DNA from: Prorocentrum cordatum
Lineage: Eukaryota > Sar > Dinophyceae > Prorocentrales > Prorocentraceae
Length of the DNA: 64,000 bases
Direction of reading: 5' to 3'
Assembly (NCBI GenBank): GCA_963575745.1
Contig: CAUYUJ010014597.1
Span: 326,957 to 390,956 of the forward strand
Below the pieces are notes generated by a model, which was not told the DNA's origin, did not search any database, and saw only the letters and a list, made by a program, of their open reading frames with translations. How positions within the stretch are numbered: the first letter of the stretch is position 1; each line of letters opens with the position of its first letter. This document shows positions 18,754 through 62,066 of the stretch, in pieces. Made by a program: the position numbers and the translations under genes.

Positions 18754-18845
18754 CTCCTCCTCCTCCCCCTCCTCCTCCCCCTCCCCCTCCTCCTCCTCCT
18801 CCTCCTCCTCCTCCTCCTCCTCCTCCTCCTCCTCCTCCTCCTCCT
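18754..18845 (+). repeat. CTC microsatellite at the 5' junction of element 1
   Basis: A nearly pure CTC/CTCCCC run that meets the gap on the left and changes directly into the element 1 leader at CTCAAG. Confidence 0.9.
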
Positions 18846-18921
18846 CTCAAGTAACATTGGGGCCCGAGCTTTCAGCTGACGAGCTCCAGTCTCTGTGCCG
18901 CCACGGGGCACTTGAGGGACT
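18846..18921 (+). other. Predicted 5'-UTR pseudoknot RNA, element 1
   Basis: CTCAAGT (18846-18852) pairs with ACTTGAG (18910-18916). AGTCT (18888-18892) pairs with GGACT (18917-18921), interleaved with the first helix as a pseudoknot. Two hairpins lie inside: GAGCT/AGCTC (18866-18870 with 18882-18886) and GTGCC/GGCAC (18895-18899 with 18907-18911; two bases compete with the first helix). Element 2 folds the same way with different bases. The role is unknown. Confidence 0.55.
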
Positions 18922-19002
18922 AGGCTAAGCACAACCAGCCCCATCCATTTGTGCTTCAGCCTCGACTAAAGCAGAGACAAATCTTAGTTTTGAGTTGCAG
19001 CC

Positions 19003-20151
19003 ATGACCGGTGCAGGCAAGACAGCCCCACGCCGAGCATGGACGAAGTGCCAGAATTGCCAGCGCTGTGAGTACAATGACATCCTAGCCAGCAAGCACAA
19101 CCTCTGCTGCCCAGGATGCCGCCAGAAGGTGGGCCTGTACAAGAAGCCGAGCTCTTCGCGTCGGAGGAACGTCCAGTTCACAGACGACGAGTGCGAGGAG
19201 CTGCAGCACCCACGTGGCATCCTACGTTCGCCGAGCCCTGGCCGCGGAGGCAAAGGCAGGCGAAAGGGCGACGACAAGACCTCAGCCATCACCGACCTGC
19301 TCAAGCAAGCGCTGGAGTCCACGGCCGACCCTGTGCCCCAGGCCAGCCTGAAGCAGCAGGTCGAGCGGCTCGAGGCGGATGCAGCCGCGGCCAAAGGCAC
19401 CACCCCAGTGGAAGCCCTGAGGCGGGCCGACGGCGCCTGGAAGGACGCTGATCATCGCCGTGGCCAGCAGGTGGCGCACGTGCCGAGGCTCCGCCAGCAG
19501 CTGGAGCTGGCCGAGGCCAAGGAGGCCAAGGCCGCCGTCGAGGTCGCGCAGGCGCTCAAGGCGCGGACGGCCGCGGCGCAGGCGCTGGCGTGCGCCGAGA
19601 GCGTCACCACGCAGTGCGCCGACACCAAGGGCACATCCGAGGCCAAGATCTTCGAGGTCTCCTACGATAAGAATTTTTTCGCGAATATTGACACCATGGA
19701 GTGCGAGGAGCACGAGAAGGCAGTTCTACGTCAGCTTCGTAAGAGTCTTGAGGCGACAGCATCGGACCTAGAGAGCAAGGAGGCCGAGGTCAAGGCGTGG
19801 CTGGCCCAGGCTCAGAAGTTGAAGTCTGAGATCGAGGATCGATCTGCCAAGAAGAGGAAGAACGCGGAGGGCCAGGGCGTTGCCACAGGCGCGGGTGCCG
19901 AGCCGCCTGGGGAGAGCGTCGCGCGTGGAGCGCAGGGTGCCGAGGGCGCCGCCGCCACGCAGACGGCCTCCACAGAGGGCACCGCCGAGGCCGCCGAGAC
20001 CGAGGCCGTGAAGGCCGAGGCCCAGAGGTTGTCGGAGGCGAAGTTCCAGGCCATGGCCAACCAGAAGGGCAAGAGCAACGGCAAGGGCGTCGGCGCCCCT
20101 CCCCAGCCGCAGCCGCAGCAGACCACAGAGGATAAGAAACAAGACGAGTGA
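19003..20151 (+). CDS. LINE ORF1 protein: zinc ribbon-like + coiled coil (element 1)
   Basis: A 382-residue protein starting at ATG in GCAGCCATGACC. Residues 13-39 hold W-x2-C-x2-C-x2-CEYND followed by CCPGC, a probable zinc-binding module also found in element 2. A basic linker follows, then about residues 95-290 are Ala/Glu/Lys-rich heptads expected to form a coiled coil. The tail is low in complexity (Gly, Ala, Gln). In known LINEs, ORF1 proteins bind the element RNA and multimerise; that role is inferred here from position and architecture. The frame ends GAG TGA, followed by CTAGG, and the ORF2 frame continues in the same register. Confidence 0.8.
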   Translation: MTGAGKTAPRRAWTKCQNCQRCEYNDILASKHNLCCPGCRQKVGLYKKPSSSRRRNVQFTDDECEELQHPRGILRSPSPGRGGKGRRKGDDKTSAITDLLKQALESTADPVPQASLKQQVERLEADAAAAKGTTPVEALRRADGAWKDADHRRGQQVAHVPRLRQQLELAEAKEAKAAVEVAQALKARTAAAQALACAESVTTQCADTKGTSEAKIFEVSYDKNFFANIDTMECEEHEKAVLRQLRKSLEATASDLESKEAEVKAWLAQAQKLKSEIEDRSAKKRKNAEGQGVATGAGAEPPGESVARGAQGAEGAAATQTASTEGTAEAAETEAVKAEAQRLSEAKFQAMANQKGKSNGKGVGAPPQPQPQQTTEDKKQDE

Positions 20152-20155
20152 CTAG
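20149..20155 (+). promoter_or_regulatory. Candidate leaky stop TGA-CTAG between ORF1 and ORF2
   Basis: The ORF1 stop TGA is followed by CTAG, the best known context for stop-codon readthrough. The next 30 codons in the same frame are open and lead into the endonuclease; the first in-frame ATG is only at 20239, after conserved endonuclease sequence has begun (FHGNVTC, matching FFGNITC in element 2). The same GAG-TGA-CTA-GG string is present in element 2. Confidence 0.6.
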
Positions 20156-20957
20156 GTACGGAGCCTAGTCGCCAGTCGGACAAGGAGCCGACAGAGGGAG
20201 GCCGCACGGCCAATATATTCCACGGGAATGTCACCTGCATGGGGGAGAAGGCGTGGTCATGGCTGGTTGGGCAGCCACGCGACTTCTTCAGCATCGTTGA
20301 GACTCATATTCATGATAAACAGTCTCTCACGAAGTACGATGGCAAAGCTCGGGGGAAGGGCTTCGCCTACACGCCAATCCAGCTAGGCGTACCCAGAGAG
20401 TCGTCACAGACGACCATGTCGAGTTCGCGAACGAGGGGGGCGAGTGGTTCATGTCCAAGAGCCACCTCCAGGTCGCCAGGCTCAGTGCATCCAAGCTCGC
20501 GGCATCCAAGCTGCAGGCGCCCAACCACCCATCCTCGCTCGACGGGTTCGTGGCGGTGACAGCGCACTTCGCTGGTTTCTCCATGGCCATCGTGTCCTTC
20601 TACGCGCACAACGGAGCGGGGGTGAGAGGCCTGAACGCTGGTAGGTACCAGCGCCTTGCAGGCCTCCTGTGGTCGGTTCAGTTGCCATGGATAGTGATCG
20701 GTGATTTCAACATCTCGCCTCAAAATTTTGTTCGGTCAGGCATCCCTGACAGACTGCACGGCACTGTGGTCGCCGCTGGGGACACGGCAACTTGTAATCT
20801 TGGCACGGGCACGGTCATTGATTACGTTTTGTGCAGTAAATCAGCGGCCCCTTTCATCGTTTCTGTCACGCCTGTCCTAGCTGTTCCCTGGAAGCCTCAC
20901 ATAGGCCTCGAGGTCACTCTCCGTAGTTCGGGTGAACAACTCATCACTAGGATCCTA
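20152..20957 (+). pseudogene. LINE ORF2 EEP endonuclease domain, frameshifted (element 1)
   Basis: An exonuclease-endonuclease-phosphatase domain that nicks target DNA for reverse transcription. In the first frame (20152 to about 20400) are FHGNVTC and FSIVETHI, with the catalytic Glu. From about 20403 the frame changes and continues with FANEGGEWF, VIGDFN (20697-20711), VIDYVL (about 20814) and WKPHIGLE (about 20890), which carries the catalytic His. Alignment with element 2 places a single frameshift at about 20385-20405. The domain then meets TAG at 20958-20960, where element 2 has an alanine codon. Catalytic residues look intact, so the damage may be recent. Confidence 0.75.
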
Positions 20958-20960
20958 TAG

Positions 20961-23900
20961 GTGCCAGGACGCCCGCCGCAAGTCCCGCGTCCCACCTCTG
21001 AACCTACAGTAGGTTCGAATTCCAGTCTCGCTAAGATTGAGCGCCAAGTCCAGCATCAGAATGCGGTTGACAGGCGCGCCCAGAAATTTACTTCATTGTT
21101 CGGCGACTGTGGGCCTCAATCGTCTCGTGCGCACTCTGAGGGGGAGGAGTCTGGGGACCAAGACACCGCCCGCTTAGAGCCGAGGGAGCACGTTGCCGAG
21201 TTAGATTATTCTGAATGGCCTGAAGAGGAGGAGGACCCGTGGGCCGAAGAGTCCGGCTTCGTCCCCAGGAACCCTCTAGGCTCGTTAGACACTACAAGTT
21301 TTGGGAATTCGTCTTGTTCTGAACCTGTCAAGTGTGGGGCCTGGGAGTCTGGGGGAGATCCGTCTGGGGGAGTCGAGGGCGTGGGGGTGGTGCTGCCGAG
21401 CTCGGCCGCTGCTCCGACCTTTGGCTCATCCCGGGCGCAGACCCTGGATTCCCAGCGTGTTGGAGACCTGCCCTCGGACCCTGACGTGGAAGTCTCTGGA
21501 GGAGCCCCGACTTATGCAATACCTCCTGAGCTGTGGGAGCGGTGTTGGAGGGAAGTCGGGTTTACACCTGGCACGTTCTCGCTTCAGTCCCTTGCTCCTG
21601 CGCTGCGTCAGTCCGTAGCCGTTCGGCTCAAACCTGATCTTGTCTCTACTATTTCAGGCCCATACGCCTCCTGGGTGTCCGCTGTCGAAGCCACCATTTC
21701 TACACACCATGGAGTGGAGATTCCACCAGGCCCACGTCGAGCAGAGGGGCCACGTTTCAAAGTGACCGCCGCCAAGATGCCCGGCAAAGCGCGAGTAGCG
21801 GCGCTTAGAGATCAAGTCAGTGCATGGTGGACGCAACTACACGCACTTCTTTCAAGACTACACTTGCATCGTGACAAGCGTAATGGACCACGACAGGTTG
21901 CTCAGTATACGGCTGCCTGCGCACGACATCTGGACACCCGACCAGACAAAGCTCGGCGAGCCTTGCTAGCTGAGCGCGAACCACCATGGGATGAATGGAT
22001 GCGGGCCATCCGAGCTGCAAGCGAGGTGCCCGCCAAGGAGCTGGAGCAGTACGTCCTCTTGTCCAAGCGTGTCATGGGCAGAGCGCAGCGACGTGCAGTC
22101 CAGGAGTCCATTCGAGTTTTCAGAGATTTTATGGGCACAGCCGAGTCTATAGGCACGCTGCATCGCTCATTGGACCCACAGGGTCTACCAGCACAGGAAC
22201 CCGACCACGAGGGGGAGGTGCTCTACCATCCCAAGGACATCATAGACGTCAAGTCTCGTGGTTGGCATGATCTATGGGCGCCTCACAGTATGGATGAGGA
22301 GTTAGTGCAGCATGCCTTTCAGCAGGTTCGGGAGGCAGCTCAGGACGATGTTCCACCACCCATCTCGGTTGAGGACATCAGAGCAGCCTTGCGGCAGATG
22401 CGGCCCCGAGCGGGGCTTGGCGTCGACATGCTTTCCCCAGGGGACTTCGAGCGTCTCCCAGATTCGGCTCTCCCTGAGTTGGCGCTGCTGTTCGAGGCTT
22501 GTGAGTACCATCTCGTTTGGCCCGCTCAGGTTCTCATGATCGTTGGGCGCATGCTGCCCAAGAAGAGCACGGGCGACCGCATCATCGGGCTCGTCTCAAT
22601 GGTTGGCAGATTATGGAGTTTGATCCGTGAACCGTTGGCGCGGCAGTGGAGCAGCGACACGGAGGCGTCCTGGGACGCAGCAGCCCGAGGGAACTCCAGT
22701 CTGAGGGAAGCATTTGTAAGAACCCTCCAACAGGAAGCGCCACATCATCTGGGCATCGCTGTCGGAGAGGGCCTGGTTGACATTATTAAAGCATTTTACG
22801 GTTCCATCGAATGGCCAGTGCTGGTGTTATGTTCCCTCAACCTGTCCTTCCCACCGAGGATCCTCTACCTCGAGCTGCTGCAGTGCGCGGCAGCACGCGC
22901 AGTGAGCCAGCTTGGGGCCACATCGCGGGCTTTTCAGCCGACGCGAAGTGTGGTGCAGGGCCTCCGCTCAGGCACGAGATTCGGCAAGGCCATGACCCAC
23001 TACGTGCTGTCAGCCATCACAGTCGCTCATCCTAGAGTGAACCATCGGATTTGGATAGACGACCTTTCGCAAGGGACATGCGGATCGAGGTCGGCAGTTA
23101 GGAGACAACTCGCATCGTGCATCACCGAGACATGTCAGGAGCTGCAGGCCAAGCAGCCCACCGTCTCCCCGAAGTCCGTTGTCATTTGTTCACACAGTCA
23201 GGACGCCAAGTGGATCGCCATACGGGTCAAGAAGGCAGGTTTCACCATCCTCCCCAAGCTCCAGGCGGCATACCTGGGCGTCGACGTCGCTGGTGGCAGC
23301 AGGCACGGGCGCTCGACCCGCGTCGTCCGCGAGGCCAAGCACAAGCGCATGAATGCCAAGGTGCGACGTTTCGCCTGGACGGCCAAGAAGTATCAAACAT
23401 GCGGTCGCCTCGAGCGACAGGGGGCCCAATCTGCTGGAGTGCATGGACACCAGGTCTACGGCACTTTCGGCAGCAAGATGACGGATATCCGACGGCGACT
23501 GGGTTTTTATTTAGCAGCCCCCACGAGGGGACGATGTTTGACCAGCCTACTCGCCCTACGAGCTGGTGACGCGGATCCCGCCATCCAGATGCCCACAGCC
23601 TGCCTGGACCAGTGGCTCACTACGTGGCGGGACCGCCCCGAGATCAGACCTGGAGTACGACAAGCCTGGCGCCAAGTTGTACAGCACCTTCGGTCCATAC
23701 CAGAAGGCCAACGATCCCGCCATATACGAGGGCCTCTCACAGCTGTAGTACTACACTTAATGGAGGCAGGATGGGGTGTGGATGAGCCTACGGCCTGGAC
23801 CATACCACCATCCCATGGGGCAGCGGGCGACGAGTGGAGGTTCGACGATGCCATGTGCACAGGCGACAAGGCCCTCGACTCGCACAGTGCCTTCCTGGAG

Positions 23901-24618
23901 GACTTCCGCGCCTCGCTCAGGCACCAGCTGTGGGTCAAGGCCAGCCGCCACTTTTGCGGAGCAGGCCCCGAGCGAGGTGTGGATGTGACCTCGTACCGTG
24001 TGCTTTTGCAGCAATTGGCAGCTGTTCCTGAGTACGGGCATCGTCTGTCAGAGACCATGCTTGCTTGTGCCGTAGGAGCTTCTTGGCCGATGCAGCGGCG
24101 CAAAGGTGAGATTGCCAGATTTGATGGCAACGTTTTGTGCCCTCGATGCGGCAAGGAGCCAGAGACGGCAAAGCACCGCATCTGGCTGTGCGAATGCAAC
24201 CAAGGGAAGGTTGCACACGATGAATCGCAGGAATTGCTACCGCAGGCCCTAGCGCAGATGGACATGGATGAGGGGTTTTGGCTCAGGGGCATGCTTCCCG
24301 CGGCCTGGGCAGCCGTACCCCCGCCACAGGATACCGAATGCTGGACCCCTGAGGGATTCAATGCAGTCTCTGCAGGGTGCTGGGGTGAAGGCTCCATCGA
24401 CAGCCTTCTCCTCATCAGTGGCGATGCAAGCGGAGGGCCAGACAGTAGCAGCAACCTGTTTCGCCGTGTTGGTGTAGCAGTGGCTCTCTTTGCCTCGCTC
24501 GAGCCATGCGTTGAGCTATTTGGCACGGTGCGCGGCCCCCTGTGTGGTCCTCGCCAAGTCGTGGCGAGGGGAGAGCTTAGGGCCCTGTTGCTAGCGGTCT
24601 GGCTCACCAAAGGCGTTA
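20961..24618 (+). CDS. LINE ORF2: RT, zinc knuckle and first half of RNase H (element 1)
   Basis: This continues the ORF2 frame after the TAG at 20958; the GTG at 20961 is not a real start. After a variable acidic linker, the RT domain lies at about 22370-23240: GVDMLSP, GDRIIGLVSMVGRLWSLIRE, motif A VDIIKAFYGSIEW, motif B VQGLRSGTRF and motif C WIDD (23052-23063). The usual Y/F-x-D-D is replaced by W-I-D-D. A C-x2-C-x8-H-x4-C knuckle begins at 24138. RNase H starts with SGDASGG (Asp) and ARGELRALL (Glu) and is broken at LTKGV by the insertion at 24619. Without it the frame resumes at 26037. It synthesises element cDNA at a nicked target. Confidence 0.85.
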
Positions 24619-24714
24619 TTCCCCACGTCCTGAGTGGGGTTCTTGTTTTCCCAGAACACCCTCTCCTTCCCACCCACCTCCCGCTGCATCTTCCATACAG
24701 CACAATATTATTCC

Positions 24715-24960
24715 TACCACACACACCATACCATACCATAGTTCCTACCACACATACCATACCATACCATACCATACCACACCATACGTACCATACCGTA
24801 CCATACCATACCATGGCGTACCATAGCATACCATACCATACACACCAATGCCACACCGTACCATACCATACCATACCTCCAGTACCATACCATACCATAT
24901 CATACCATACCGTACCATACCATACCTACCATATCATTCCATACCACTCCATACCGAAAA
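24715..24960 (+). repeat. CCATA pentanucleotide microsatellite
   Basis: An impure run of CCATA with CCATAC, GTACC and CACA variants. The open frame entering from the RNase H reads it as an HTIPYHT-like peptide, which is not protein homology. Confidence 0.9.
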
Positions 24961-24964
24961 CCAT

Positions 24965-25990
24965 ACTACTTACATGGTTCCGTGCCCCTCCCACCCCTCC
25001 AGGGAGGCCCCGCCTGAGCGAGGAGGGTATCGGAATACCATACTATTTACATGGTTTCGTGCCCCTCCCACCCCTCCAGGGAGGCCCCGCCTGAGCGAGG
25101 AGGGTATCGGAATACCATACCCTCCCCTCCCACACCTCCAGGGAGGCCCCGCCTGAGCGAGGAGGGTATCGGAATACCATACTATTTACATGGTTTCGTG
25201 CCCCTCCCACCCCTCCAGGGAGGCCCCGCCTGAGCGAGGAGGGTATCGGAATACCATACTATTTACATGGTTTCGTGCCCCTCCCACCCCTCCAGGGAGG
25301 CCCCGCCTGAGCGAGGAGGGTATCGGAATACCATACTATTTACATGGTTTCGTGCCCCTCCCACCCCTCCAGGGAGGCCCCGCCTGAGCGAGGAGGGTAT
25401 CGGAATACCATACTATTTACATGGTTTCGTGCCCCTCCCACCCCTCCAGGGAGGCCCCGCCTGAGCGAGGAGGGTATCGGAATACCATACTATTTACATG
25501 GTTTCGTGCCCCTCCCACCCCTCCAGGGAGGCCCCGCCTGAGCGAGGAGGGTATCGGAATACCATACTATTTACATGGTTTCGTGCCCCTCCCACCCCTC
25601 CAGGGAGGCCCCGCCTGAGCGAGGAGGGTATCGGAATACCATACTATTTACATGGTTTCGTGCCCCTCCCACCCCTCCAGGGAGGCCCCGCCTGAGCGAG
25701 GAGGGTATCGGAATACCATACTATTTACATGGTTTCGTGCCCCTCCCACCCCTCCAGGGAGGCCCCGCCTGAGCGAGGAGGGTATCGGAATACCATACTA
25801 TTTACATGGTTTCGTGCCCCTCCCACCCCTCCAGCCCATACTATTTACATGGTTTCGTGCCCCTCCCACCCCTCCAGGGAGGCCCCGCCTGAGCGAGGAG
25901 GGTATCGGAATACCATACTATTTACATGGTTTCGTGCCCCTCCCACCCCTGCAGGGAGGCCCCGCCTGAGCGAGGAGGGCATCAAGAAAA
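24965..25990 (+). repeat. 77-bp tandem repeat array, about 14 units
   Basis: Units contain TACTATTTACATGGTTTCGT, CCTCCAGGGAGGC and GGTATCGGAATACC. Starts fall at 24965, 25041, 25180 and then every 77 bp to 25796, with short units near 25118 and 25800-25840. The central nine or so units are identical in sequence, so the array expanded or was homogenised recently. Each unit has two small hairpins, CCTCC-AG-GGAGG and GGTAT-CGGA-ATACC. A repeated 65-residue open frame appears only because the unit lacks stops. Confidence 0.93.
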
Positions 25991-26036
25991 TGGGTCCCAC
26001 GAAACCGTTAATCTCTGTATGTGGGGAACTCCGTTA

Positions 26037-26890
26037 GCATAATTTTGTTCATTTCAGACTGCGAACCTGTAGTCAAAGGATGGTTCGCTGGCCGCTATGA
26101 TCGGCCCCAAGGCGATGATAAGGATTTGTGGGCGCAGCTAGGCCAGCTTCTCAAGGAGCGGGCAGGCGGCGCTGCATCGGTCACAGTTGATTTCACCCAC
26201 TCCCACCTCACCGCCCTAGACATTGTGAGGGGAGTGGCACCGAGATGGAAGGTCACTAGCAATGCTGTAGTTGACGAGGTGGCGGGCCTTGCAGCCAAGG
26301 AGGCGAGAGTCTCACAGGATGTGCGATCGAATGTTCTGTGGCACGAGCGCAGAGCCCGACTTGTACGCATGCAGATTTTGCGGGCCACCTTAGATGCCTG
26401 CGATGCCGAAGCTGAAAATAGAGTTGCGCCTCGTGGGAAAAAGGTCGCCCCTGCCCCCTCGCCCCCCTCTGCTGCCTCTCTCTCCCTCTTCTCTACCGAC
26501 CATTGCCTTGATGAGACAGGGCGCAGGTGTACTCGGTGTGGGGGCTCGGCCACAAAGGCGCGGACCACCCACTGGCGTCAGTCACCCTGTTTCGAGCCCC
26601 TGAACTATAACGGAGTGATTTTCAACAAACCCCCCCAAGCCTTGTTGCATATAGCGGGGGGCTTTGTTGACTCCTCTCATCGAATGCAGTGGCACAGTGG
26701 GCTGAGATTGTGGTTCTGTGGCAAGTGTGGATGCTACGGGCATCAACTACTAGACGGGCTTGGCCGTCCATGTCAGCGTCCCACTGCCAACAGGCTTGAA
26801 TATCTTTCCAGGATTTCCCGTGGGCTCTGGCCAAAGGTTCTGAGCAAGACGGAGAAGGCCACCCGACGCGGAGGAGCGTCTCGAGGGTAG
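26037..26890 (+). CDS. LINE ORF2 C-terminus: rest of RNase H and zinc module (element 1)
   Basis: After the insertion the frame gives ILFISD with the third RNase H Asp, VDFTHSH (His) and VVDEVAGLAAKEARV (last Asp), so the RNase H residues are all present across the two halves. A helical basic linker follows. The end carries a C-terminal zinc module shared with element 2: CTRCGG (about 26527), HIAGGFVDSSHR, LWFCGKCG (about 26709), LGRPCQR and GLWPKVLSKTEKA. The stop is TAG at 26888. Confidence 0.82.
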
Positions 26891-26978
26891 GCCCTTCGTC
26901 GCATTGCATACAGCATGTCATTATTGTCATTGCTTGCTTTCCTGACGTTGTCATGTATCCATACCCATACCCATACCC
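26891..26978 (+). other. Element 1 3' UTR and tail
   Basis: Short non-coding end with TCATTATTGTCATTGC and a terminal CCATAC repeat that meets the CTC tract directly. There is no poly(A) tail. Confidence 0.6.
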
Positions 26979-27467
26979 TCCTCCTCCTCCTCCTCCTCCT
27001 CCTCCTCCTCCTCGTCCTCCTTCTACTCCTCCTCCTCCTCCTGCTCCTGCTCCTCCTCCTCCTCCTCCTCCTCCTCCACCTCCTCCTCCTCCTCCTCCTC
27101 CTCCCCCTCTTCGGATCAGAGGGGAGGTGCGGCAAGGGCACCTCCGCCGCGGCGGCTCCGCCGACGCTGGGCCCCGCCAGGCCGGCACGGCACCGGCGGG
27201 CGCCGCCAGCGGAGTTGCAGCCGGCCGCTGCCAGGGCGGGGAGGCCTCCCAAGGGGCCCATGATGGGCCTGCTTCCCACCACCACCACAAGTTGGAGGGG
27301 GGAAGGAGGTGGACGAGGAGGAGGACGAAGAGGAGGAGGCGGAGGAGGAGGAGGAGGAGAGAGAGGAGGTGGAGGAGGAGGAGGAGGAGGAAGAGGAGGA
27401 GGACCCCCTCCCCCTCCAATTTATGGTGGTGGTGGTGGTGGTGGTGGTGGTGGTGGTGGTGGTGGAA
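26979..27467. repeat. CTC tract, spacer, GGA tract, GGT tract
   Basis: CTC runs to about 27113, a GC-rich spacer follows, GGA occupies about 27297-27413 and (GGT)n about 27424-27467. The CTC and GGA tracts are mutually complementary and could pair as a long hairpin around the spacer. Confidence 0.88.
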
Positions 27468-29225: not shown

Positions 29226-29240
29226 GCTCCTCATCCTCAA

Positions 29241-34436: not shown

Positions 34437-34439
34437 GAT

Positions 34440-37600: not shown

Positions 37601-37604
37601 CAAG

Positions 37605-49414: not shown

Positions 49415-52400
49415 ACACCGTGGGCGTCGTGGCAGCGCCCGCGTGAAGGCCTCTTTCGTCACCTACAACGGCTCGTCCTGGGCTTCGTGCAGGGAGTTTC
49501 TGACCTACTGCGACCTTGGCATCCAGGTGGTGGCGGCCCAGGAGTTGCGCATCGATGGTGATGACCGTCGGCGCGCTGAAGGCTGGGCTGCACGGGCTGG
49601 GTGGCATGCTATTATTTCATCGTGCAGACGTCTGGAGTCGGGCCGCCCGTCTGCTGGAGTTGGTCTTTTCGTTCGACGTCACATCAGCGTGACGGTGCTG
49701 CCAGGCTTGCGAGATGTTGGCCTGATTCCGAGTTTTTGTGTGGCCTGTCATGCCGATTTTGGCATCAAAGGTGGGCTTGTGCTGTTGTCTTGCTACTTTG
49801 AGGTGGGACGATGGAATGACGTGAATGTGATGCGGCTCTACGACATTGCTACGACGCTGCGGGGTTGGAACAGGCCGTTTCTTGCGGCGGGGGATTTCAA
49901 CTGCGATCCGGAGCACCTCTTGGAGTTTGGCTTCCTGAACTTCATTCCTGCAGCAGTGGTCGCGAGGCCTCCCGATCCTACAGGGCGTCATCCTGTTGGC
50001 ACGTGCCGCAGTGCTAAAGGAGCCTACTCGACCATCGACTACTGGCTGGCCAGCTTGTCTATCGCGGGCTCGATGGCGAAGCCCCACCCTGTGGAGGGAT
50101 GGCCTGCATCGCCACACCTCCCTATGCTGACGTCCCTGGACGCACGGGCTAAGGCTGTCAAGTTCCTCGTCTTGCGGGCGCCGAAGGCTTTCCCGAAGGC
50201 AGCCCCGACTGAGGACATCACGCCTGTGCTGGCAGCTGGCACCCGCGATCTCATCGAGGATGATGTAGCACTGGGAGGAGCTGCGAGTCCTGCTCAGGCT
50301 CAGGCGAGGCTGGATCGCTTGTACGCTGAGTTCGTGAATGTCGTGGAGGAGGAGCTGCTTGTGCGGTATGGCATCCCTGTCAGCGACGCTCCTCGCTACT
50401 GCGGCCGTGCTGACAAGGTGGCCTACTGCTGGCGTCAGGCTGGGGGAGCGCCTGCAGCTGCTAGGCCTGCTGCACCTCCCGACGCTCGACGTGCTCGACG
50501 ACTGGCCCAGGCGACGGACGACGCGGTGCGTGCTGGCCTGCAACCTCTGGATTTGCTTCGGCGCCTGGACAGGCTTGTCTCTCTGGGCGCCGAAAGGTCT
50601 TTTCGTTCGCTCGAGTGCCAGCACGTGGTGGCCACGCTGCGTGGCGTTCTGCCGCTGGCAAGAGAGGTCGTGGAGGCGCCCCCCAGTGCATTCCAGGAGC
50701 TGCTGGATCGCGCTGCCTCGGTACAGCCAGGTGGCCACGCTGCGAGGCATGCTGCTGATCTTGGGATGATGGGTCTCGATGGCATTCAGCGCCTGCTGTT
50801 GGATTCGGTCTATTTTGTCGTGGGTTGGCTTCGAACCTATGCCGACGGCCTGGAGCAGGAGGCGATGGCTGAGCGCAGGCGGGACTTTGCGCGGTGGGCT
50901 GCCAGCTGTCGCGAGTCTCGCATCAAGCCGCTGCTCAGCTTCACTAAGCCGCCTGGTGTTCCCCATTCCCAAGTGTTTCGGCATCAGAGGCCCTCCACCC
51001 TGGCTCAGGATGTTGCTGATGATCAAATGGATGGTTGGTCGGGCATCTGGAATGCGCGCCCTGCCTCTGAGGTCCCCACCAGTGCCCATGTGCATGGAGC
51101 GGCTGATGGGCCCGACGACTACGTGGTGAGGCACCTCGCGGATTTCCCTGACACGGCCCAGCTCTTTGAGGATATTCGGCGTTTGCCCCGCGCCTCCTTG
51201 CCTGTGCCGAAGATTGGGCAGTTGCGTGCGGCAGCTAAGTCCTTCAAGTGGCATACGGGGCAGGGCGCTGATCGGCTTGCCCCTCGTTCTCTCAGCCTGC
51301 TCACTGACGAGACCCTCTCGCTGCTGGTGCACGTGCTTTGGCTGGCGGAGCACTGGGAGCGCTGGCCCACGCAGATGGCTGCCGTTCACATCGTGCTCCT
51401 GGCGAAGCCCAAAGGTGGATGGCGGCCCATCGCGCTCTTGCAGGCGGCCTACCGCGTATGGTCGCAGGTCCGCAGCGGGCAGCTGCGGACTTGGCTGCTG
51501 GAGCACGACAGGCCTTTCTTCGCCCTGGCCTCTGGCAAGACCACTCTTGATGTGGCCTCAAGGGCCTTGGTGAGGGCAGAGGCTGCACTGGCGGTCGAGG
51601 ATGGCGTCGTCACGGCCATTGCTGATATCGAGAAGTGCTTCGACCGCATCTGTTGGCGGAGGCTGGTGGCTGCGGCGGCCAAGCATGGGTTTCCGCGCCA
51701 GCTGATGTCATGTGCCTTGGTGATGGACCGTGCGCCTCGCAGGTTGGTGTGGCAGCAGGCTACGTCGTATGCGGTTACGGTATCCCAAGGAGTGCTGCCA
51801 GGCTGCAAGTTCGCGATGGCCATGGTGCAGCTACTGATGCTCGCGTCCTTGGATGATTTCGTAGGCACGGTGGAGCCCGGCATCCCTGCGCAGGTGGGTT
51901 TCTCCTTTTCGTTGGACGTTTTCGCGGATGACCTTACCCTGCAGGTGGTGGCCAGGAGGACGGATTTGTGCAGGGTCGCCACCGACGCTGTGGCCTTGCT
52001 CTGTGACGCCCTGCTGGATCTTGGCCTCCCCGTGGCGAAGTCAAAGGCGTTCCTCACTGCGTCTGACGACTCTACCGCCCCCGCCGTGACTCGGCTTTTG
52101 CGGAGATACGGTTTCCAGGCCAGGTCCTGGTTGGAGGTCCTAGGCCTGGAGGTGGCTGCTGGCAAGAGCGTTCGTGCTCGTGTGCTTCGGGGTCGGGTCG
52201 GGCGTGTCTCGAAGCGGGCCAGGCACTTCAGGAGGCTTAGTCATCTCGGGGCGAAGTTCAGGCAGGTTCCCAAGGCTGCCGTCGGCCCAGCTATCACTTA
52301 CGGTTTGGGCATTGTGGGAGCTGGGCCGCACCTTGTCAAGCGAATGACCTCCCTGGCGAAGCTGGGCTGGAGTGCCATTCCCTCGGGGGCCTCGCACTGG

Positions 52401-54437: not shown

Positions 54438-54922
54438 GGGACCGCAGGGCTGGTGGGCCCCTGGAGGGGCCTCGTCCGAAGGCGCCTCGGACTGGGGTGG
54501 CGCCCTCGGCTTCGGGGGTCGGTGAGCCTGCGGGCTCTGGGGAGCTTGGGGGGCATCCGCCCTCCAAGCGCCCTCGGACATCTGGGGGTACTGGTGGGCC
54601 TTCCTGGGTTGCGCGTGAGGCCACCCGCCCTGAGGTCCCTCTCCCCGCTCAAGGCCCTGTTGGGCCCAGCAGTGCTAGAGGCCATCAAATGTGTCGTGCT
54701 GGTGAGACCCTTGCATTCTGCCTTCGTTGTGGCGCCAGGGCCCAGCCGTCGGCCCCTCGCTCGCGTTTGTGGGGGCCGTGCGAGGGAATTGCATCCAGCA
54801 AGGACTCCACCTATTTGAAGCGCCTGATGGTGGGTAGAGACCCCTGTTCGGGCGAGTGGCGGGGTGAGCCCCGTCCTCTCTTCCCCACAGATGATGCCTG
54901 CTTCTGGCTTCGTCTGCGGTAG
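54420..54922 (+). pseudogene. C-terminal zinc module of element 3 ORF2, out of frame
   Basis: In the frame entered after the C11 run at 54408-54418, a low-complexity Pro/Gly/Arg linker leads to LAFCLRCGARA (54710-54742), LWGPCEG and TYLKRLM. These match LWFCVRCGAYA, LGEPCGR and YLKRMSK at the end of element 2 ORF2. The module therefore most likely belonged to ORF2 before a slip in the C run made the stop at 54435. The fact that its residues are preserved suggests the slip is recent or a sequencing error. Confidence 0.65.
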
Positions 54923-55045
54923 TCCGAGGTTTCGTCTGTGGCTGTTCTCTCTTTAATCGTCGGGTTGCGCGCCCTCGGCCTTTTTTCCGTCTCGTTTCCC
55001 CCCTTTTCGCTCGCTCTGCGCACCCGTTTCGATCTGGTCGTGCCT
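54923..55045 (+). other. Element 3 3' UTR
   Basis: Short T- and C-rich end (TTTTTTCCGTCTCG, CCCCCCTTTTCGCTCG) that passes directly into CTC repeats after GGTCGTG. No poly(A). Confidence 0.55.
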
Positions 55046-55090
55046 CCTCCTCCTCCTCCTCCTCCTCCTCCTCCTCCTCCTCCTCCTCCT
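55046..55090 (+). repeat. CTC tract between elements 3 and 2
   Basis: About 15 CTC units. It is the 3' flank of element 3 and the 5' flank of element 2 at once. Confidence 0.9.
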
Positions 55091-55159
55091 CTCAAGCTCT
55101 TTCGGCCCTGGCCTTTCCGCCAGGGCTGTCCCAAGACCTCCACGAGGTGCTTGAGGGAC
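55091..55159 (+). other. Predicted 5'-UTR pseudoknot RNA, element 2
   Basis: CTCAAGC (55091-55097) pairs with GCTTGAG (55149-55155). GTCC (55128-55131) pairs with GGAC (55156-55159), forming the pseudoknot. Hairpins GCCCTGGC/GCCAGGGC (55105-55112 with 55119-55126) and ACCTC/GAGGT (55136-55140 with 55144-55148) lie inside. Compared with element 1 the layout is the same although hairpin sequences differ, and the last pair of the first helix changed from T-A to C-G. Confidence 0.55.
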
Positions 55160-55216
55160 TTCCGTGCCCCTGTCCATCCTTGTTCAGGTTTTACGGTTGA
55201 CTAACGCTGGGACACC

Positions 55217-56377
55217 ATGGGGCGCCATGCGCGCCACTTTCCCGCAGCTGAGGGCGCACCCTGGCGCCAAGTGGTGGGATCCACCCGCCTCTGGAGTCGA
55301 TGCAAAGGGTGCAACGCATGCGAGTACAACGACCGCATCAGCCCCACTCATCCAGTCTGCCCCAGGTGCCACAGGCCCATGAAGTTGCACCGCTCTCGTT
55401 CACGCAGCCCCAGCGTCGTCCGCTTCGGGCCCGAGGAGATCATCGAGGTCCCCGAACCAGGCTGCGAACATCGAGGGCGGTGCCCAGGCAGGCGGCGCCA
55501 AGCCGCGCGCGACCTCCAACGCCGAGCTGGCCGCTCACTTGCGGCAAGCCATGGCCATCGCCACCGACCCAGCCATGCAGGCGGTCCTCCACGCCCAGGT
55601 GCAGCGGCTGGGCGCTTCCGACGCCGTCGTGGTCCAGGAGAGCGAGGTCGAGGCGATCAGGAAGGCCGACGGCGCGTGGCGGACAGCCACGAACCATCAC
55701 AATCAGGTCGTCAGCAATGTCATCAGGCTCCACAAGGCGCTCGAGGCTGCAGAGAGCAAGAAGCAAGCCGCCGCGCTCGAGGTCGCTCGCACAGAGCAGG
55801 CCAAAAGGCGCGCGGCGCAGAGGGAGCCGGCCGCTGCGACCCGACTTCCCATGGTGCCCAGGGCGACGGGCCTCAGGAGCCCTTCACGGTCAAGTGGGAC
55901 CCCGACCTCTTCAAGCAGATCGACGAGCTCGACTTCACTGAAGGCGAGCAGGCGGAGCTCGACGCCATCAAGAAAGGGCTGGAGGACCTCCAGCAGCAGT
56001 TCGCTACCAAAGGACCGCAGGTCACGAGTCTGATCGAGAGGGCTCGCAAGGTCCGCAGCGCCCAGGAGGCCAGGTACGCCAAGAAGCGCAAGGGGGCTGA
56101 CGGCCAGACCAACGGCGGCACTCCTGGGCAGGCCGACGAGGCAGCCACCCCGCCACGCGGCTCCAGTGGCGTGGCCGGCGCCGAAGGCAGCTCAGCCGAT
56201 GGCGGCGTGAGCGCCAGCCCCGCCGAGGCCGCGCCTACCAAGGACGCCGACCAGCAGCTGGCTGCCGAGGCCGCTGCCGCCGACGCCACTCGACCAGGAG
56301 GAGCTGCCGCAGATCCTGCCGCCAAGGCCAGCGCCAAGGGCAAGGGCAGGCGCAACGGTCGAGCCCACTCCGAGTGA
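55217..56377 (+). CDS. LINE ORF1 protein, middle part frameshifted (element 2)
   Basis: An open frame of 386 codons from ATG in ACACCATGG. Residues 26-51 have W-x2-C-x2-C-x2-CEYND...CPRC, the same signature as element 1. From about 55465 to 55840-55885 the homologous coiled coil is in another frame (NAELAAHLRQAMAIATD, EAIRKADGAWRTA, LEAAESKKQAAALEVA, matching element 1 ADGAWKDA), while the nominal frame gives only Arg/Gly-rich nonsense. Homology returns to the first frame at EPFTVKWDPDLF, KQIDELDFTEGEQ. So two opposite indels flank the coiled coil. The frame ends GAG TGA CTAGG. Confidence 0.75.
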   Translation: MGRHARHFPAAEGAPWRQVVGSTRLWSRCKGCNACEYNDRISPTHPVCPRCHRPMKLHRSRSRSPSVVRFGPEEIIEVPEPGCEHRGRCPGRRRQAARDLQRRAGRSLAASHGHRHRPSHAGGPPRPGAAAGRFRRRRGPGERGRGDQEGRRRVADSHEPSQSGRQQCHQAPQGARGCREQEASRRARGRSHRAGQKARGAEGAGRCDPTSHGAQGDGPQEPFTVKWDPDLFKQIDELDFTEGEQAELDAIKKGLEDLQQQFATKGPQVTSLIERARKVRSAQEARYAKKRKGADGQTNGGTPGQADEAATPPRGSSGVAGAEGSSADGGVSASPAEAAPTKDADQQLAAEAAAADATRPGGAAADPAAKASAKGKGRRNGRAHSE

Positions 56378-56381
56378 CTAG
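56375..56381 (+). promoter_or_regulatory. Candidate leaky stop TGA-CTAG between ORF1 and ORF2
   Basis: The same GAG-TGA-CTA-GG string as in element 1. The downstream frame is open from 56378 in the same register, without ATG before the endonuclease homology (FFGNITC). Confidence 0.6.
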
Positions 56382-59300
56382 GCATAGCAGGGTCACCTTC
56401 AGCTGGGGGAGGGGCGAGCGTCCCTGCCGCTCACGACGCCGTGGCAGCCGCTACCAGTACTAGTACATCCTCTACGTTGTTCTTTGGGAACATCACATGC
56501 GCAGGCCAGAAGACGTTCGACTGGGTCAGGACATCTACGGACGACTTCGTGGCTTTTGTGGAGACACACATCAGTGACGGCAGCGTTGGCAAGTGGAAGG
56601 CACGATATCGATATATCAATCGTCGGCTCTTCGCCAACCCTGCGAGACCTCCTCAGGTTGATCAGGAAATTGGGAGGCTACACCATTCCACCAGTGAATG
56701 CACAGTCGCTCCTGAGCATGCCAATGAGGGAGGAGAACGGTTTCTTCCCAGAGGGCACCTCCGTGCCCATCCCCTCTTAGAGTGCCTCCAGGCCAAAGGG
56801 CTCCAGTGTCTTCCCACCTCCAGCAGCCTCGACAGTTTCCTCCCCGTGGTGATTCACCTCAAGGGGTACTCCATTGTGGCTGTTTTCTTTTACGCTTTCT
56901 GTAGCATATGCCTGAGAGGGCCCAATGTCGCCCGCTTTAGACGTCTCGGGAGCCTCCTCAGGTCCCTCCAGCTCCCATGGTTTGTCGTCGGGGACTGGAA
57001 CCTCAGCCCCGAAGCTCTCAGTAGGACAGGCTTTCTCCAGCAGGTCCAAGGGGAGATCCTTTGCGCCCCTGTGGAATACACGTACGACCCTGGCGGCGGA
57101 CGTAAGCCATCGCATTTGGATTTCGTTGTTCATAGCGCCGCTGCCCGCCCGTGCCTGGTCGACGTTTCCGCTGTGCATGACATGCCGTGGAAGCCTCGCA
57201 TAGGTTTGCGAATTCGGCTCGTTCAAACAGAAGACCAGCTCCTGACTAGAGTTCTCGCCCTGCCTAGGCGGCTCCCCGCCGCCAACAAGCCCCCCAGAGT
57301 TGCCACTCCTGGCTCCGAGGCCAGCCGTGCCAGAGCAGCCGGACAGGAAGCCCGTCTCAAGACAGAGGCTAACAGGCAGACTCTTCTTCAAACGCTTATT
57401 CAAGGTTTTCAGGGCAATGACCCTGCAGAATTGCCCACCAGTGCTGGCGAAACGTCCGACTGTGATGTGCCCGAATCCCAGCTCGCGGACAGCTCTGACG
57501 ACGAAGATCCCTGGGCTCACGAGAGCAGTTTCAGCCCACATGTGCCTGCTGCTGCTTCGAACGCCGCCCGCGTCGAGACAAAAGACATGCCGCCAAGCCC
57601 AGCATTGGAGTGCCAGGCCCTGCCATCCAGTCAGCATCGCTTTGCACCGCCCAACACTGAGTATCATAGCGAACATGTTCAGCCTGCTGCCTTTGCATTT
57701 TCTGCCGCCCGCCCTGATGGTGAACTGCAACAACAGCGCAAGGACGGCTTTTCTCTGCATGATTCTGCCTCTGGTGACAGTCATCCATGCCTCTCAGCCA
57801 GTACAGTCAGACAGTCGAGTTTAACAGGTAGTAAATTGACAGCCCAGCGTGAGAACCCCCCCAGCGACCCTGACGCAAGCCAGGGGACCCAGCCCCCGTG
57901 CCGAACTAGGAGCCCCGAATTCGACATCAGCCCAGAGCTATGGAGTGCCCACAGGCAACAAATCAGTGTCTTGCCGCCGCAAGCATCGCGGCCTGCCCCT
58001 GCTGCTGCTGCTTCCACAGCCTTCAGGCTCAAGCCTGACATCGCCCTGCAGCATGGGCAACTCTACGGTGCGTGGGTCACGACCGTTGAGACCTCCATTT
58101 GTGCACGCCACCAGATCCCCTTCAGCGGAACTTCACGCGCCGATGGACCGCAGTACCATATTGAAGTTGTTCGAGAGCTGCAGTGTCGACGCATCTCTCC
58201 ACTTGCTGACAACAGCAGCACGTGGTGGACGACACTCCACACCCTGCTACAGGGCATCTACAGGCACAGGGCGCGGGGCAACGGTCACCTCCAGCTCCAG
58301 CAGTTGTTCAGAGGGATCGAGAGGCTCTTCGAATCGCCTCCCAGCCAAGCCGCTCACGTCATCCACGACAAGGACGGCTACAGTTGGACACAGTGGCTCG
58401 ATTTCCTCGGCCACATACAGCAACACAGCGCTGAGCAGGTCGTCGCTGGTGCAGTCAGAGCATCACGACTAGCACGGCGAGCACAGCAGCGAGCCATACG
58501 ACGTGCCATCTACAACTTTCGCGACTGGGCGGTCACTGACGACGCCATAGGTATATTACATCGTGCATTACGACCTCAGCCACAACCCGCCGAGGTTACC
58601 AAGGACCGCGGCGCCACCATCATGCACCCCAAGGACCTGATTGACAGCAAGGTGGACACCTGGAGGCGAGTCTGGGCACCCGAGGGAGCTGCCAATATTG
58701 GCGGCCTGCAGGAGTGCTTCCACCGCATCGTCGAACGAATCCAGGAGTGCCCGCTGCCACCCATCACCAACTACGAGGTGCGACAAGCCATCAAGCGTCT
58801 CAAAGCCAATACTGCTTTGGGAGCTGACCGACTTCGGCCAGCCGACCTACAACGGCTACCAGACAACGCACCCAGCGAGCCCGCCGAGCTGTACAACATT
58901 GCAGAGCAGGTACAGATGTGGCCCCATCAACTCCTTCACACCATCGGCGTCACGAGGGCCAAGAAGGATAACGGGGACAGGATACTCGGCATCATGACCA
59001 TCATCGCTCGGCTCTGGTCCCTCATCAGGGAACCCTACGTACAGGCCTGGGACAGGGAGTACTTCGCCCACTGGGATGCCATCGCCAAGGGGAACTCTGC
59101 GTTCCGCGAGGCCTACGAGCGCAGCCTCCACGAGGAGGTGGCCGCCAAGCTCGGCATCACGCAAGCTCACGGCCTCCTTGACGTTTCGCAGTTCTACGAC
59201 TCCATACATTGGACCACCCTCATTGACGAGGCCCTAGAGCTCAATTTCCCGCCCGAGATCTTGGGCTTAGAAGTTTTACAGTGCACGGCACCACGCGCGC

Positions 59301-59632
59301 TCATGCAGAGCGGCGCCTACGCCGATGCCATCCAACCCACGCGCTCAATGGTGCAAGGGCTGCGGTCGGGCACTCGCTTCGCCAAGATCATGACTTACAA
59401 GGCCTTGCTCCATGCCACCACGTGCCATCCTCAGACACGGCACCGCGTATGGGTCGACGACCTGTCGCATCGCATGCAGGCCAGCCGACGCGCCCTGCGC
59501 GTCGACATGGTTCACGTTCTCACCGACACATGCATGGCGCTCCAGGGCTACGGCCTCAGCATCGCCAAGAAGAGCGTCATAGTATGCACACACATCCAGG
59601 ACGCCGAGTACATAGCCAAGGTCATGCGCATG
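56378..59632 (+). CDS. LINE ORF2: endonuclease and RT (element 2)
   Basis: The frame follows ORF1 directly with no ATG at its start, so translation by readthrough or a non-AUG start is needed. Endonuclease: FFGNITC, AFVETHI (Glu), HANEGGERF, VVGDWN (Asp), LDFVV and WKPRIGL, where the expected catalytic His (PHIGL in element 1) is Arg. A Ser/Pro/Asp-rich linker follows. RT (about 58780-59620): GADRLRP, GDRILGIMTIIARLWSLIRE, motif A LLDVSQFYDSIHW, motif B VQGLRSGTRF and motif C WVDD (59450-59461). Homology passes to the next frame at A4 (59633-59636): one extra A compared with the frame of element 1. Confidence 0.85.
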
Positions 59633-59633
59633 A

Positions 59634-61877
59634 AAAGGGTACCCCATCCAGCCACGCGAACATGCCGCATACCTGGGGGCCGACCTCAGCTGCGGCACCA
59701 GGCAGGCGCGCGCTACCACCACCCAACGACGTCTACGGCACCGCAACATGCATGTCAAGATCGTCAGGGTAGCCCGAGTCACCAAGCGATATCACGTTAC
59801 ATCCCGTCTGGCGATCCAGGGCGGGCTCGCAGCAGCCAACTATGCCCACCAACTCTACGGCACATTTGGGACGGCCATGACTACTTGCAGACGGCGTCTG
59901 GGAGACGCGGTCGGACCACGGCTCCGAGGACGGTGTTTGACCACTCTTCTCGATCTCAAGGCTGCAGAATGGGACCCAGCACGAAAATTGCCGCGTGAAT
60001 CCGTCGTTGCCTGGCTTACAGCGTGGACTTCCAACCAGCAGCTCCACCATGCCATCAACAGCACGTGGGCAAAGATCGTCGAGCATTTCAAGCGCATCCC
60101 AGCAGCTCAGCGTGTCCGACACATACGTGGCCAACAAGCCACCATCATCCACTACCTCATGCAGATGCGGTGGGACCCATCACGACCGACTCAATGGCGC
60201 ATGCCTCAGACAGCAGGTCTCAGCGGGGACTCATGGGTGATTGACGTCACTGAGCTCCCAGGTTTCCCCGACGCCGACATTCCACATCAGCTCCTACTTG
60301 ACGTCGACGCCAGCATCTGCCACCAACTGTGGACTTGTGCGAGCAAGCACCATGGAGGCGAGGGCCTACAGCATGGTGTGGACAACAGGTCCTACCGCAA
60401 GCTGCTTACCTACTTAGAGCGCATGCCACAAGGAGTAAGGTTGGCCAATTTGATGCTCACCATCGCTACGGGCGCCATGTGGACACGACAGCGAGTATTT
60501 CAGGAGACAAAGACGCCAGACGTTGACGCCAAGTGCCCCAGGTGCAGCCGGGCCAATGAGGATGACTTCCACCGCGCCTGGGAATGCGAAGGCAATCAGG
60601 ACAATCCCATCCTTCGAGGCACCAGCTACTTACTTCCAGAGGCCTACGCCCAGCGGGACATGTACGAATGTTTCTGGACTAGGGGACTAATGCCAGCAGC
60701 ATGGACGGCAGTACCACAACCGCCACAACATGAACAGTGGTCCTGCCATGGTTTCGAGCATTTCTTCCCACAGTGTCTACGAGTCCACGCTGATACGACA
60801 CTTTACGCTTTCGGTGATGCAAGCGGCGGCCAGGACACCAACAACCCACAGCTTCGGAGGGTGGGTGTCGGAGCTGCCATATTTTCCAGCCTCGAGGACA
60901 ACAGCGTGGAGATGAGTGCTGCTTTCTGGGGGCCGTTACCTGGTCCTCATCAGACGGTGCCCAGAGGCGAGCTCCTCGCTCTCGTCGCGACGGTGGAGGC
61001 TACAGACCAGGACCTCGTCTTTTTAACCGACAACGAAGCCTGTAACATCAATTTCCATCACGGCAAGGCCCAGGAACCTACTGGCAGCGACGCTGACCTC
61101 TGGTTGAGATTGAAGAAGGCGACAGCGCAGCGTACTGGGACGATCACAATTATCTGGGTACCTTCTCACGCCGAACCACAGGACATCATCCAAGGGGGGA
61201 TTGCTTCGTCTTTGGCGGTGGGCAATCGTGTTGCAGACACTCTTGCTGGTATTGCCGCCAGTGAGGCACGGGTTTTACCTGAACACCGCCAGCGGGTAGC
61301 GCTGGCTGAACAAAAAGCTTTTCAGGTCCGCATGAGGTTACTTCGCACAGCGCTCGACACCCTCGAGGCCCAGAGGCAGGAGTTTCAGTGTCAGAGGGAG
61401 CAACGCCCTAAGAGGCAGGCGGCTAAGGCAGACCGACCGCCTGCCCCTCGTTCTTGTGCTCTCTTTGGGTCCCAGCACTCTGTCGACCCCACTGGCTCCC
61501 AATGTACTAGGTGCTTTTGTTCCTCCAGCAAAGCTTCGAGGTCTCGTTGGCTCCTTTTGGATTGTTTTGAGTTTCTTAACATAGACGGCACTTATAAGGA
61601 GGCCCCTCAGGGGAAGTCGGTCCATGTCGCGGGGGGGTTCGTGCACAGTAGCCACCGTTCTCGGTTCCACGCTCAGCTGAATTTGTGGTTCTGTGTCAGG
61701 TGTGGAGCTTACGCTCAGTTGGTTCTCGGGAAACTCGGGGAACCCTGCGGTAGGCTCACCCCCTCGGGGCAGGAATACCTCAAGCGTATGTCCAAGGGGC
61801 TCTGGCCGAAGGCCCTCAGTCGAGCTGAGAAGGCCACCAGAGCTCACAACACCCCGAGTGGGGTGGCGGAGGTCTAA
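59634..61877 (+). CDS. LINE ORF2: RT thumb, zinc knuckle, RNase H, zinc module (element 2)
   Basis: This continues ORF2 after the single-base slip, beginning KGYPIQPREHAAYLGADL (element 1: LQAAYLGVDV). It includes HQLYGTFGTAM, RRRLG and RGRCLTTLLDL, as in element 1. The C-x2-C-x8-H-x4-C knuckle starts at 60534. RNase H: FGDASGG (Asp), PRGELLAL (Glu), FLTDNEA (Asp), WVPSHAE (His) and NRVADTLAG (Asp), all present. The C-terminal zinc module has CTRCF (about 61503), HVAGGFVHSSHR, LWFCVRCGAYA (about 61683), LGEPCGR, YLKRMSKGLWPKALSRAEKA. Stop TAA at 61875. Confidence 0.85.
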   Translation, partial: KGYPIQPREHAAYLGADLSCGTRQARATTTQRRLRHRNMHVKIVRVARVTKRYHVTSRLAIQGGLAAANYAHQLYGTFGTAMTTCRRRLGDAVGPRLRGRCLTTLLDLKAAEWDPARKLPRESVVAWLTAWTSNQQLHHAINSTWAKIVEHFKRIPAAQRVRHIRGQQATIIHYLMQMRWDPSRPTQWRMPQTAGLSGDSWVIDVTELPGFPDADIPHQLLLDVDASICHQLWTCASKHHGGEGLQHGVDNRSYRKLLTYLERMPQGVRLANLMLTIATGAMWTRQRVFQETKTPDVDAKCPRCSRANEDDFHRAWECEGNQDNPILRGTSYLLPEAYAQRDMYECFWTRGLMPAAWTAVPQPPQHEQWSCHGFEHFFPQCLRVHADTTLYAFGDASGGQDTNNPQLRRVGVGAAIFSSLEDNSVEMSAAFWGPLPGPHQTVPRGELLALVATVEATDQDLVFLTDNEACNINFHHGKAQEPTGSDADLWLRLKKATAQRTGTITIIWVPSHAEPQDIIQGGIASSLAVGNRVADTLAGIAASEARVLPEHRQRVALAEQKAFQVRMRLLRTALDTLEAQRQEFQCQREQRPKRQAAKADRPPAPRSCALFGSQHSVDPTGSQCTRCFCSSSKASRSRWLLLDCFEFLNIDGTYKEAPQGKSVHVAGGFVHSSHRSRFHAQLNLWFCVRCGAYAQLVLGKLGEPCGRLTPSGQEYLKRMSKGLWPKALSRAEKATRAHNTPSGVAEV

Positions 61878-61918
61878 TTATCCACATCGCTACGCGATCA
61901 GGCAGAGACTCCAAAGAC

Positions 61919-62066
61919 TCCTCCTCCTCCTCCTCCTCCTCCTCCTCCTCCGACTCCTCCTCCACCTCTTCCTCCTCCTTTCTCCTTCCCCATCCTCCTC
62001 CTCCTCCTCCTTCTCCTCCTTCTCCTCCTCCTCCTCCTTCCCCTCCTCCTCCCCCTCCCCCCTCCT
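61919..62066 (+). repeat. CTC microsatellite, 3' flank of element 2
   Basis: CTC/CTT run starting directly after CAGAGACTCCAAAGA. Confidence 0.9.

Follow-up and report, generated by a model that had tools for sequence, protein, structure and literature searches.

Microsatellite-specific long interspersed nuclear elements (LINEs) are known from animals and include Waldo, Kibi and Koshi. Togen, which targets (TG)n, and some HERO families are microsatellite-specific animal LINEs as well (PMC4640811). The pairing P1 of the R2 ribozyme can include host 28S sequence, and the position of cleavage shapes the 5' junction (PMC3774820). The spliced leader of dinoflagellates (DinoSL) has the sequence DCCGUAGCCAUUUUGGCUCAAG (PMC2606063), and its last bases, CTCAAG, are a frequent truncated leader relic in dinoflagellate retrogenes (PMC12014239). 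Here we describe three long plus-strand LINEs, elements 1, 3 and 2, in a 64,000-nucleotide stretch of the Prorocentrum cordatum genome (GCA_963575745.1, contig CAUYUJ010014597.1; C13748:326957-390956), referred to as the window. The elements belong to two groups. Most examined copies of both lie in (CTC)n with CTC on their sense strand, and we consider it probable that the tract, besides being the site of insertion, provides the polypyrimidine stretch for trans-splicing.

All six junctions of the three elements, when read directly, have CTC on the sense strand. This agrees with an earlier note on the window, which had stated that the elements begin directly after and end directly before CTC. 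Pure CTC or GAG runs of at least 12 bases are absent from the interior of the elements, and as an estimate of chance, such runs occupy 3.6% (CTC on the plus strand) and 1.4% (GAG on the plus strand) of the non-element bases of the window. A 100-N gap (18654-18753) lies directly 5' of the 5' tract of element 1, and the join between that tract and the element is contiguous. The earlier note had also counted two CTC-flanked fossils and a total of eight LINE junctions with sense CTC, of which seven stand. The plus-strand fossil at 29280 is real and resembles element 3. Its 5' untranslated region (UTR) aligns to that of element 3 with a score of 78, compared with 55 for the best of 200 shuffles, and it retains element-3-like pieces of ORF1 and the endonuclease (42% over 31 amino acids and 45% over 51 amino acids, E 0.003 each). 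The minus-strand site at 9627 was rejected as a LINE fossil since, despite its CTC tract and DinoSL-like motif, it has no LINE similarity; it is perhaps a leader-tagged retrocopy with a decayed motif.

The assembly searched for further copies comprises 4,128,499,153 bases in 21,875 contigs. A pattern for the element 1 and 2 kind, consisting of CTCAAG, 35-60 bases and CTTGAGGGACT, occurs at 131 places genome-wide, compared with eight for the reversed pattern. Of the 100 matches listed, 98 lie outside the window, and all of these were taken with up to 120 upstream bases; 83 of the 98 contain the P3-L3 core of the predicted ribozyme described below. The 24 bases upstream of these core-bearing copies match CTC at 20 or more positions in 55 of 83 and at 18 or more in 61 of 83. 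The CTC stretch ends at most three bases from the element in 62 copies, 4-12 bases away in nine, and farther away in seven, and is absent in five, so that 71 of 83 copies have it within 12 bases. The corresponding values for 20,000 random positions, drawn from 200 kb in two regions only (C13748:226957-326956 and C1:50001-150000), are 1.6% for at least 18 of 24 matches and 2.0% for a stretch within 12 bases. The 15 matches without the core include eight that are unrelated by eye and have no upstream CTC, which serve as an internal control, and seven that look family-like, five of which have CTC. For the element 3 kind, the 5' UTR pattern common to element 3 and the fossil is found at 45 places, and the reversed pattern at none. 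Sense CTC stretches are present upstream in 37 of 40 copies sampled from the 43 places outside the window, and in 31 of these 37 the stretch lies 35-75 bases from the match (about 54 in element 3 itself). GAG was found neither in the last 24 bases upstream of the 83 copies of the first kind nor within 190 upstream bases of the 40 copies of the second. Most examined copies of both kinds thus lie in one repeat, as is characteristic of microsatellite-specific LINEs. The outcome that the earlier note had named as refuting its proposal, a majority of copies with flanks unrelated to CTC, did not occur; insertion specific to (CTC)n is supported, and the strand polarity holds, for genomic copies of these families.

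The same pattern might arise passively, if insertion were loose and copies survived or were assembled best in pyrimidine-rich DNA of low value. Exceptions to the CTC rule such as C14545, which is still in C-rich DNA, are in keeping with this explanation. However, CTC is near only about 2% of random positions, differential survival would need to eliminate almost every insertion elsewhere and every one with GAG on the sense strand, and many copies are located on long contigs. We regard passive accumulation as very improbable.

The 3' ends of the element 1 and 2 kind were studied in 20 hand-picked copies of the 83 ribozyme-bearing ones, in the stretch 6.2-7.4 kb downstream. The C-terminal coding region is visible in 16 of the 20, one of which runs into Ns. 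A CTC-type tract is met at 14 of the 15 readable ends, in agreement with the 5' flanks; 13 of these tracts include a pure run of at least 12 bases, and that of C11181 is of CCCTCC type. Several copies end in short tails before the tract, for example repeats of CCCATA or TTCCTA, and no poly(A) was seen at the 3' ends of the fetched copies. The readable end without a CTC-type tract belongs to C14545, which lies in C-rich non-CTC DNA and has CCCCCGCCCTCGCCGCA on both sides, a duplication of up to 17 bases identified by eye; an automated anchor missed it, and its first Cs are possibly part of the tail of the element. The flanks of C12824, in an irregular tract, match at 21 of 21 bases. In pure repeats, matching flanks are uninformative about target-site duplication.

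The exact 21-base DinoSL is located between the CTC tract and the element body in seven copies in all. Six of them are among the 40 element-3-like copies, where the leader follows CTC directly or past a short spacer; three of the six have one common flank and likely derive from a single event. The leader is joined to the body at GTGGC in five of these copies and at an internal place in C1743. In the seventh copy, C4173, the CTC tract is followed by the exact leader, two leader relics and an element-1-like body starting at CTGACG, which in element 1 comes after TTTCAG. Diverged leaders were found in C696, C15019 and C6295. In our reading, the leader-bearing copies are remnants of element RNAs that had been trans-spliced and were then inserted into CTC tracts, as the leader between tract and body in seven copies suggests. 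After the tract, elements of the first kind start with CTCAAG and those of the element 3 kind mostly with AG|GTGGC. The sequence NAG|G is present at the start of the element 3 body in 31 of 40 copies, including the leader-bearing ones, and AGG occurs in 79.7% of the acceptors of P. cordatum (PMC10666404). We infer a second role for the CTC target, as polypyrimidine tract of a trans-splice acceptor.

The leader-bearing copies also bear on the possibility that the elements themselves make CTC tracts, as 3' tails or by slippage, and that later copies nest in them without a pre-existing target. The purest runs in the window do adjoin elements, and their lengths of 34-63 bases exceed those of the 92 other runs (Mann-Whitney p 0.0002). 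On the other hand, the sense CTC 5' of element 3 is a degenerate array of 980 bp, CTC/GAG tracts abound outside elements, and target-site duplications exist. Furthermore, CTC precedes the leader in the leader-bearing copies, at a position where an element could not have made it. This origin of the tracts is accordingly given very little credence.

The 5' ends of elements 1 and 2 can be folded, from the tract boundary onward, into a nested double pseudoknot resembling the hepatitis delta virus (HDV) ribozyme. P1 is formed by CUCAAGU/ACUUGAG in element 1 and CUCAAGC/GCUUGAG in element 2, and P2 by GUCUCUG/CAGAGAC and UGUCCCA/UGGGACA, respectively. Both putative ribozymes have a P3 of 3 bp, a loop L3 of GCCACGG (element 1) or UCCACGA (element 2), GG after the second strand of P1 (P1'), and GACUAA before the second strand of P2 (P2'). 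The model contains the features of the HDV-like layout, namely the nested double pseudoknot of P1-P4, P1.1, and the C preceding an A-rich J4/2, and its predicted cut site coincides with the boundary between CTC tract and element. Between the two elements, six of the seven P1 pairs are kept and one is changed on both sides, and six of the seven P2 pairs are changed on both sides. Among the 83 core-bearing genomic copies, a flexible search found a P2 partner of at least 5 bp in all 83, and GACNRA precedes P2' in 71. The 23 distinct P2 sets are fully self-paired, compared with 58.5% of bases paired after swapping of strands, where 34 of 506 swaps are fully paired. Overlap with DinoSL as the sole cause of CTCAAG was rejected, because the surrounding helices covary like those of a ribozyme. 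The three bases preceding CTCAAG in 40 long tracts are CCT in 22, TCC in eight and CTC in only two, and CTCAAG is therefore mostly out of phase with the tract.

The P1 strand CUCAAG is identical to the 3' end of the leader, which suggests that the leader can supply P1. The elements could also be plain microsatellite-specific LINEs, in which (CTC)n is selected by the endonuclease or by the 3' end of the RNA, and in which leader relics and the resemblance to an acceptor arise incidentally because the mRNAs of the host are trans-spliced anyway. Targeting by itself accounts for the flanks, and leader relics are widespread in dinoflagellate retrogenes (PMC12014239). This simpler explanation does not account, however, for a ribozyme P1 that has the terminal sequence of the leader, or for the element 3 body being joined at one and the same AG in copies with and without a leader, and we consider it unlikely.

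Several observations weigh against a role of the tract as both target and splice signal, or against the ribozyme attached to it. CTC is absent within 12 bases of 12 of the 83 ribozyme-bearing copies and upstream of three of the 40 element-3-like ones, and for the element 3 kind, the junction in the window is the one 3' CTC observed. The counts overstate the number of independent events, because copies with shared flanks (C483 and C14623; C803, C5748 and C7757) are probably duplicates. A search of the window for DinoSL with up to three mismatches found none. The 200 kb sample contains three exact DinoSL copies, all of which adjoin a CTC/GAG tract, one with CTC and two with GAG on the sense strand. 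With sense GAG in two of three, strict polarity does not extend to retrocopies at large, and those of the host may land in the same kind of DNA as these LINEs. With Rfam, no ribozyme in the window reaches the gathering score, and the 5' ends of elements 1 and 2 have no match even when E values as high as 10 are admitted. Element 3 and the two fossil sites were rejected as ribozyme carriers after no HDV-like fold was found in any of them. In favour of the ribozyme, a topology descriptor applied to both strands of the window matches at exactly two places, the 5' junctions of elements 1 and 2, compared with one loose match and no strict one in 30 dinucleotide shuffles, but the descriptor was composed after both sites had been seen, so the figures are not blind. 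The genome pattern fixes CTCAAG and CTTGAG, and the conservation of P1 in the set is hence built in. The seventh P1 pair, which the pattern does not constrain, speaks for the helix, being C-G in 76, T-A in seven and A-T in one of the 98 listed copies.

With the tract regarded as both target and splice signal, a cycle can be proposed. A copy would be transcribed, probably from upstream. The CTC tract together with the AG in the first bases of the element would act as 3' splice acceptor, to which DinoSL would be added. Elements of the 1 and 2 kind would then form P1 between the CUCAAG at the leader end and their own CUUGAG, and the ribozyme would cut before CUCAAG, trimming the leader to this hexamer. 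Target-primed reverse transcription would start where the GAG strand of another tract has been nicked, possibly aided by pairing of read-through (CUC)n at the 3' end of the RNA with the target. The new copy, in sense orientation within (CTC)n, would again possess a tract and an AG, and the acceptor would be remade. We speculate, at slightly less than even chance, that these steps constitute one self-renewing design, in which the ribozyme is completed by the host leader: trans-splicing at (CTC)n-AG donates CUCAAG, the cap-bearing part of the leader is cut off, and landing in sense (CTC)n renews the acceptor. If the tract plays both roles, the target repeat of a LINE would be chosen for its usefulness to the RNA of the element, as a splice signal. 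The elements would also be a candidate machine, and (CTC)n a landing rule, for retroposition in dinoflagellates, whose genomes hold many leader-tagged retrocopies.

Table 1. Positions of elements, tracts and predicted ribozymes in the window.
Feature	Position	Strand	Details
(CTC)n tract 5' of element 1	18754..18846	+	outer end adjoins 100-N gap
Predicted HDV-like ribozyme, element 1	18846..18978	+	P1 18846-18852/18910-18916; P2 18889-18895/18972-18978
Element 1 ribozyme, further parts		+	P3 18897-18899/18907-18909; L3 18900-18906; GACUAA 18964-18969
Element 1 (LINE)	18847..26976	+	between CTC tracts 18754-18846 and 26977-27109
Element 1, coding parts		+	ORF1 19003-20151; endonuclease piece 20319-20957; reverse transcriptase (RT) region 20961-24713
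Element 1, further parts		+	satellite insertion ~24711-25983; C-terminal piece 26012-26890
(CTC)n tract 3' of element 1	26977..27109	+	
(CTC)n tract 5' of element-3-like fossil	29250..29279	+	
Element-3-like fossil	29280..31616	+	pieces of 5' UTR, ORF1 and endonuclease; no 3' end located
CTC array 5' of element 3	47242..48221	+	pure run 48159-48221 adjoins element
Element 3 (LINE)	48222..55042	+	first bases AGGTGGC; between CTC 47242-48221 and 55043-55091
DinoSL-like motif, element 3 5' UTR	48259..48275	+	15/17; weak alone
Element 3, coding parts		+	ORF1 frame 48224-49414; ORF2 frame to 54437 (RT, RNase H)
Element 3, C-terminal end		+	other frame, stop after 54919
Pure CTC tract, element 3 3' end / element 2 5' end	55043..55091	+	
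Predicted HDV-like ribozyme, element 2	55091..55214	+	P1 55091-55097/55149-55155; P2 55127-55133/55208-55214
Element 2 ribozyme, further parts		+	P3 55136-55138/55146-55148; L3 55139-55145; GACUAA 55199-55204
Element 2 (LINE)	55092..61917	+	between CTC tracts 55043-55091 and 61918-62071
Element 2, coding parts		+	ORF1 55217-56377; ORF2 in two frames, 56441-59998 and 59634-61877
(CTC)n tract 3' of element 2	61918..62071	+	
CTC tract then DinoSL-like motif GCCATGTTGGCTCA	9607..9656	-	no LINE similarity

The assignment of the elements to LINEs is supported by their recognizable RT, endonuclease and RNase H regions (Table 1) and by the target-site duplications described above. Matches above the Pfam cut-off were obtained for RVT_1 and RNase_H of element 3, and matches below it for EEP of elements 3 and 1 and for RVT_1 and RNase_H of element 2; RVT_1 of element 1 and EEP of element 2 gave no match. 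Pieces aligned from the RT and RNase H regions are about 38-42% identical between elements 1 and 2, and 22-27% between element 3 and either of them. Judged from these alignments, elements 1 and 2 on one side and element 3 on the other are two deeply diverged LINE groups. Membership in the R2 clade was ruled out by the EEP-type domain and the CTC target, as opposed to a restriction-like endonuclease and a 28S target. A protein search retrieved seven relatives of element 3, one of them named Prorocentrum cordatum; the other protein searches for relatives gave no match, and no relative is encoded in viral contigs. The 5' DNA pattern has one viral and 13 prokaryote matches outside the host, which by eye are unlike the element. 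Two LINE fragments of other groups in the C1 sample, the ends of which are undefined, have no sense CTC run of at least 15 bases within 2 kb.

The DinoSL-like matches in the window were rejected as proof of trans-splicing, since a chance-type site in the element 1 open reading frame scores 25, compared with 26 for the motif of element 3. A single open frame (46320-54437, 2705 amino acids) crosses the CTC array into element 3. At C15236:261240-261530, a run of CTCAA repeats is located between the CTC tract and the element, suggestive of slippage at the 5' end. Tandem repeats of about 77-89 bp are present at 24956-25983, within element 1, and at 34438-34786 and 35332-41150, some with common words such as GTTTCGT. 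The premise of the earlier note that GGA tracts on the plus strand are equally common failed, as the window contains 66 CTC-on-plus and 31 GAG-on-plus runs of at least 12 bases. The ratio is 62:22 upstream of the window and 40:85 in the C1 sample, a regional strand bias that may follow gene direction; genome-wide, overlapping matches to (CTC)8 number 3.45 and 3.35 million on the two strands.

Like the microsatellite-specific LINEs of animals, the elements have copies within one short tandem repeat. They differ in the repeat and the host, in the leader tags and ribozyme at the boundary, and in having an EEP-type endonuclease, recognized by weak Pfam matches, in place of the restriction-like enzyme found in NeSL and HERO elements. 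They share with R2 an HDV-like ribozyme at the 5' end, here predicted, to whose P1 host sequence may contribute and whose cut site would shape the 5' junction; unlike the ribosomal DNA-specific R2, they have a (CTC)n target and a P1 strand with the sequence of the spliced leader (PMC3774820). The Pr77 of the trypanosomatid L1Tc/ingi elements likewise is a 5' HDV-like ribozyme of LINEs in a trans-splicing host, but these elements have a poly(A) tract, duplications of 7-11 nucleotides and a P1 without leader sequence, and the extract of PMC4035085 describes no microsatellite target for them. In the open literature, with subscription papers not covered, neither (CTC)n-specific LINEs nor dinoflagellate HDV-like ribozymes were found described. 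DinoSL-tagged retrogenes of dinoflagellates resemble the present copies in their genomic leader relics, CTCAAG included; those are host genes, whereas the elements described here are autonomous LINEs with a CTC target and a predicted ribozyme (PMC12014239). What is new here is the predicted HDV-like ribozyme at the tract boundary and the presence of DinoSL between the tract and the element body.

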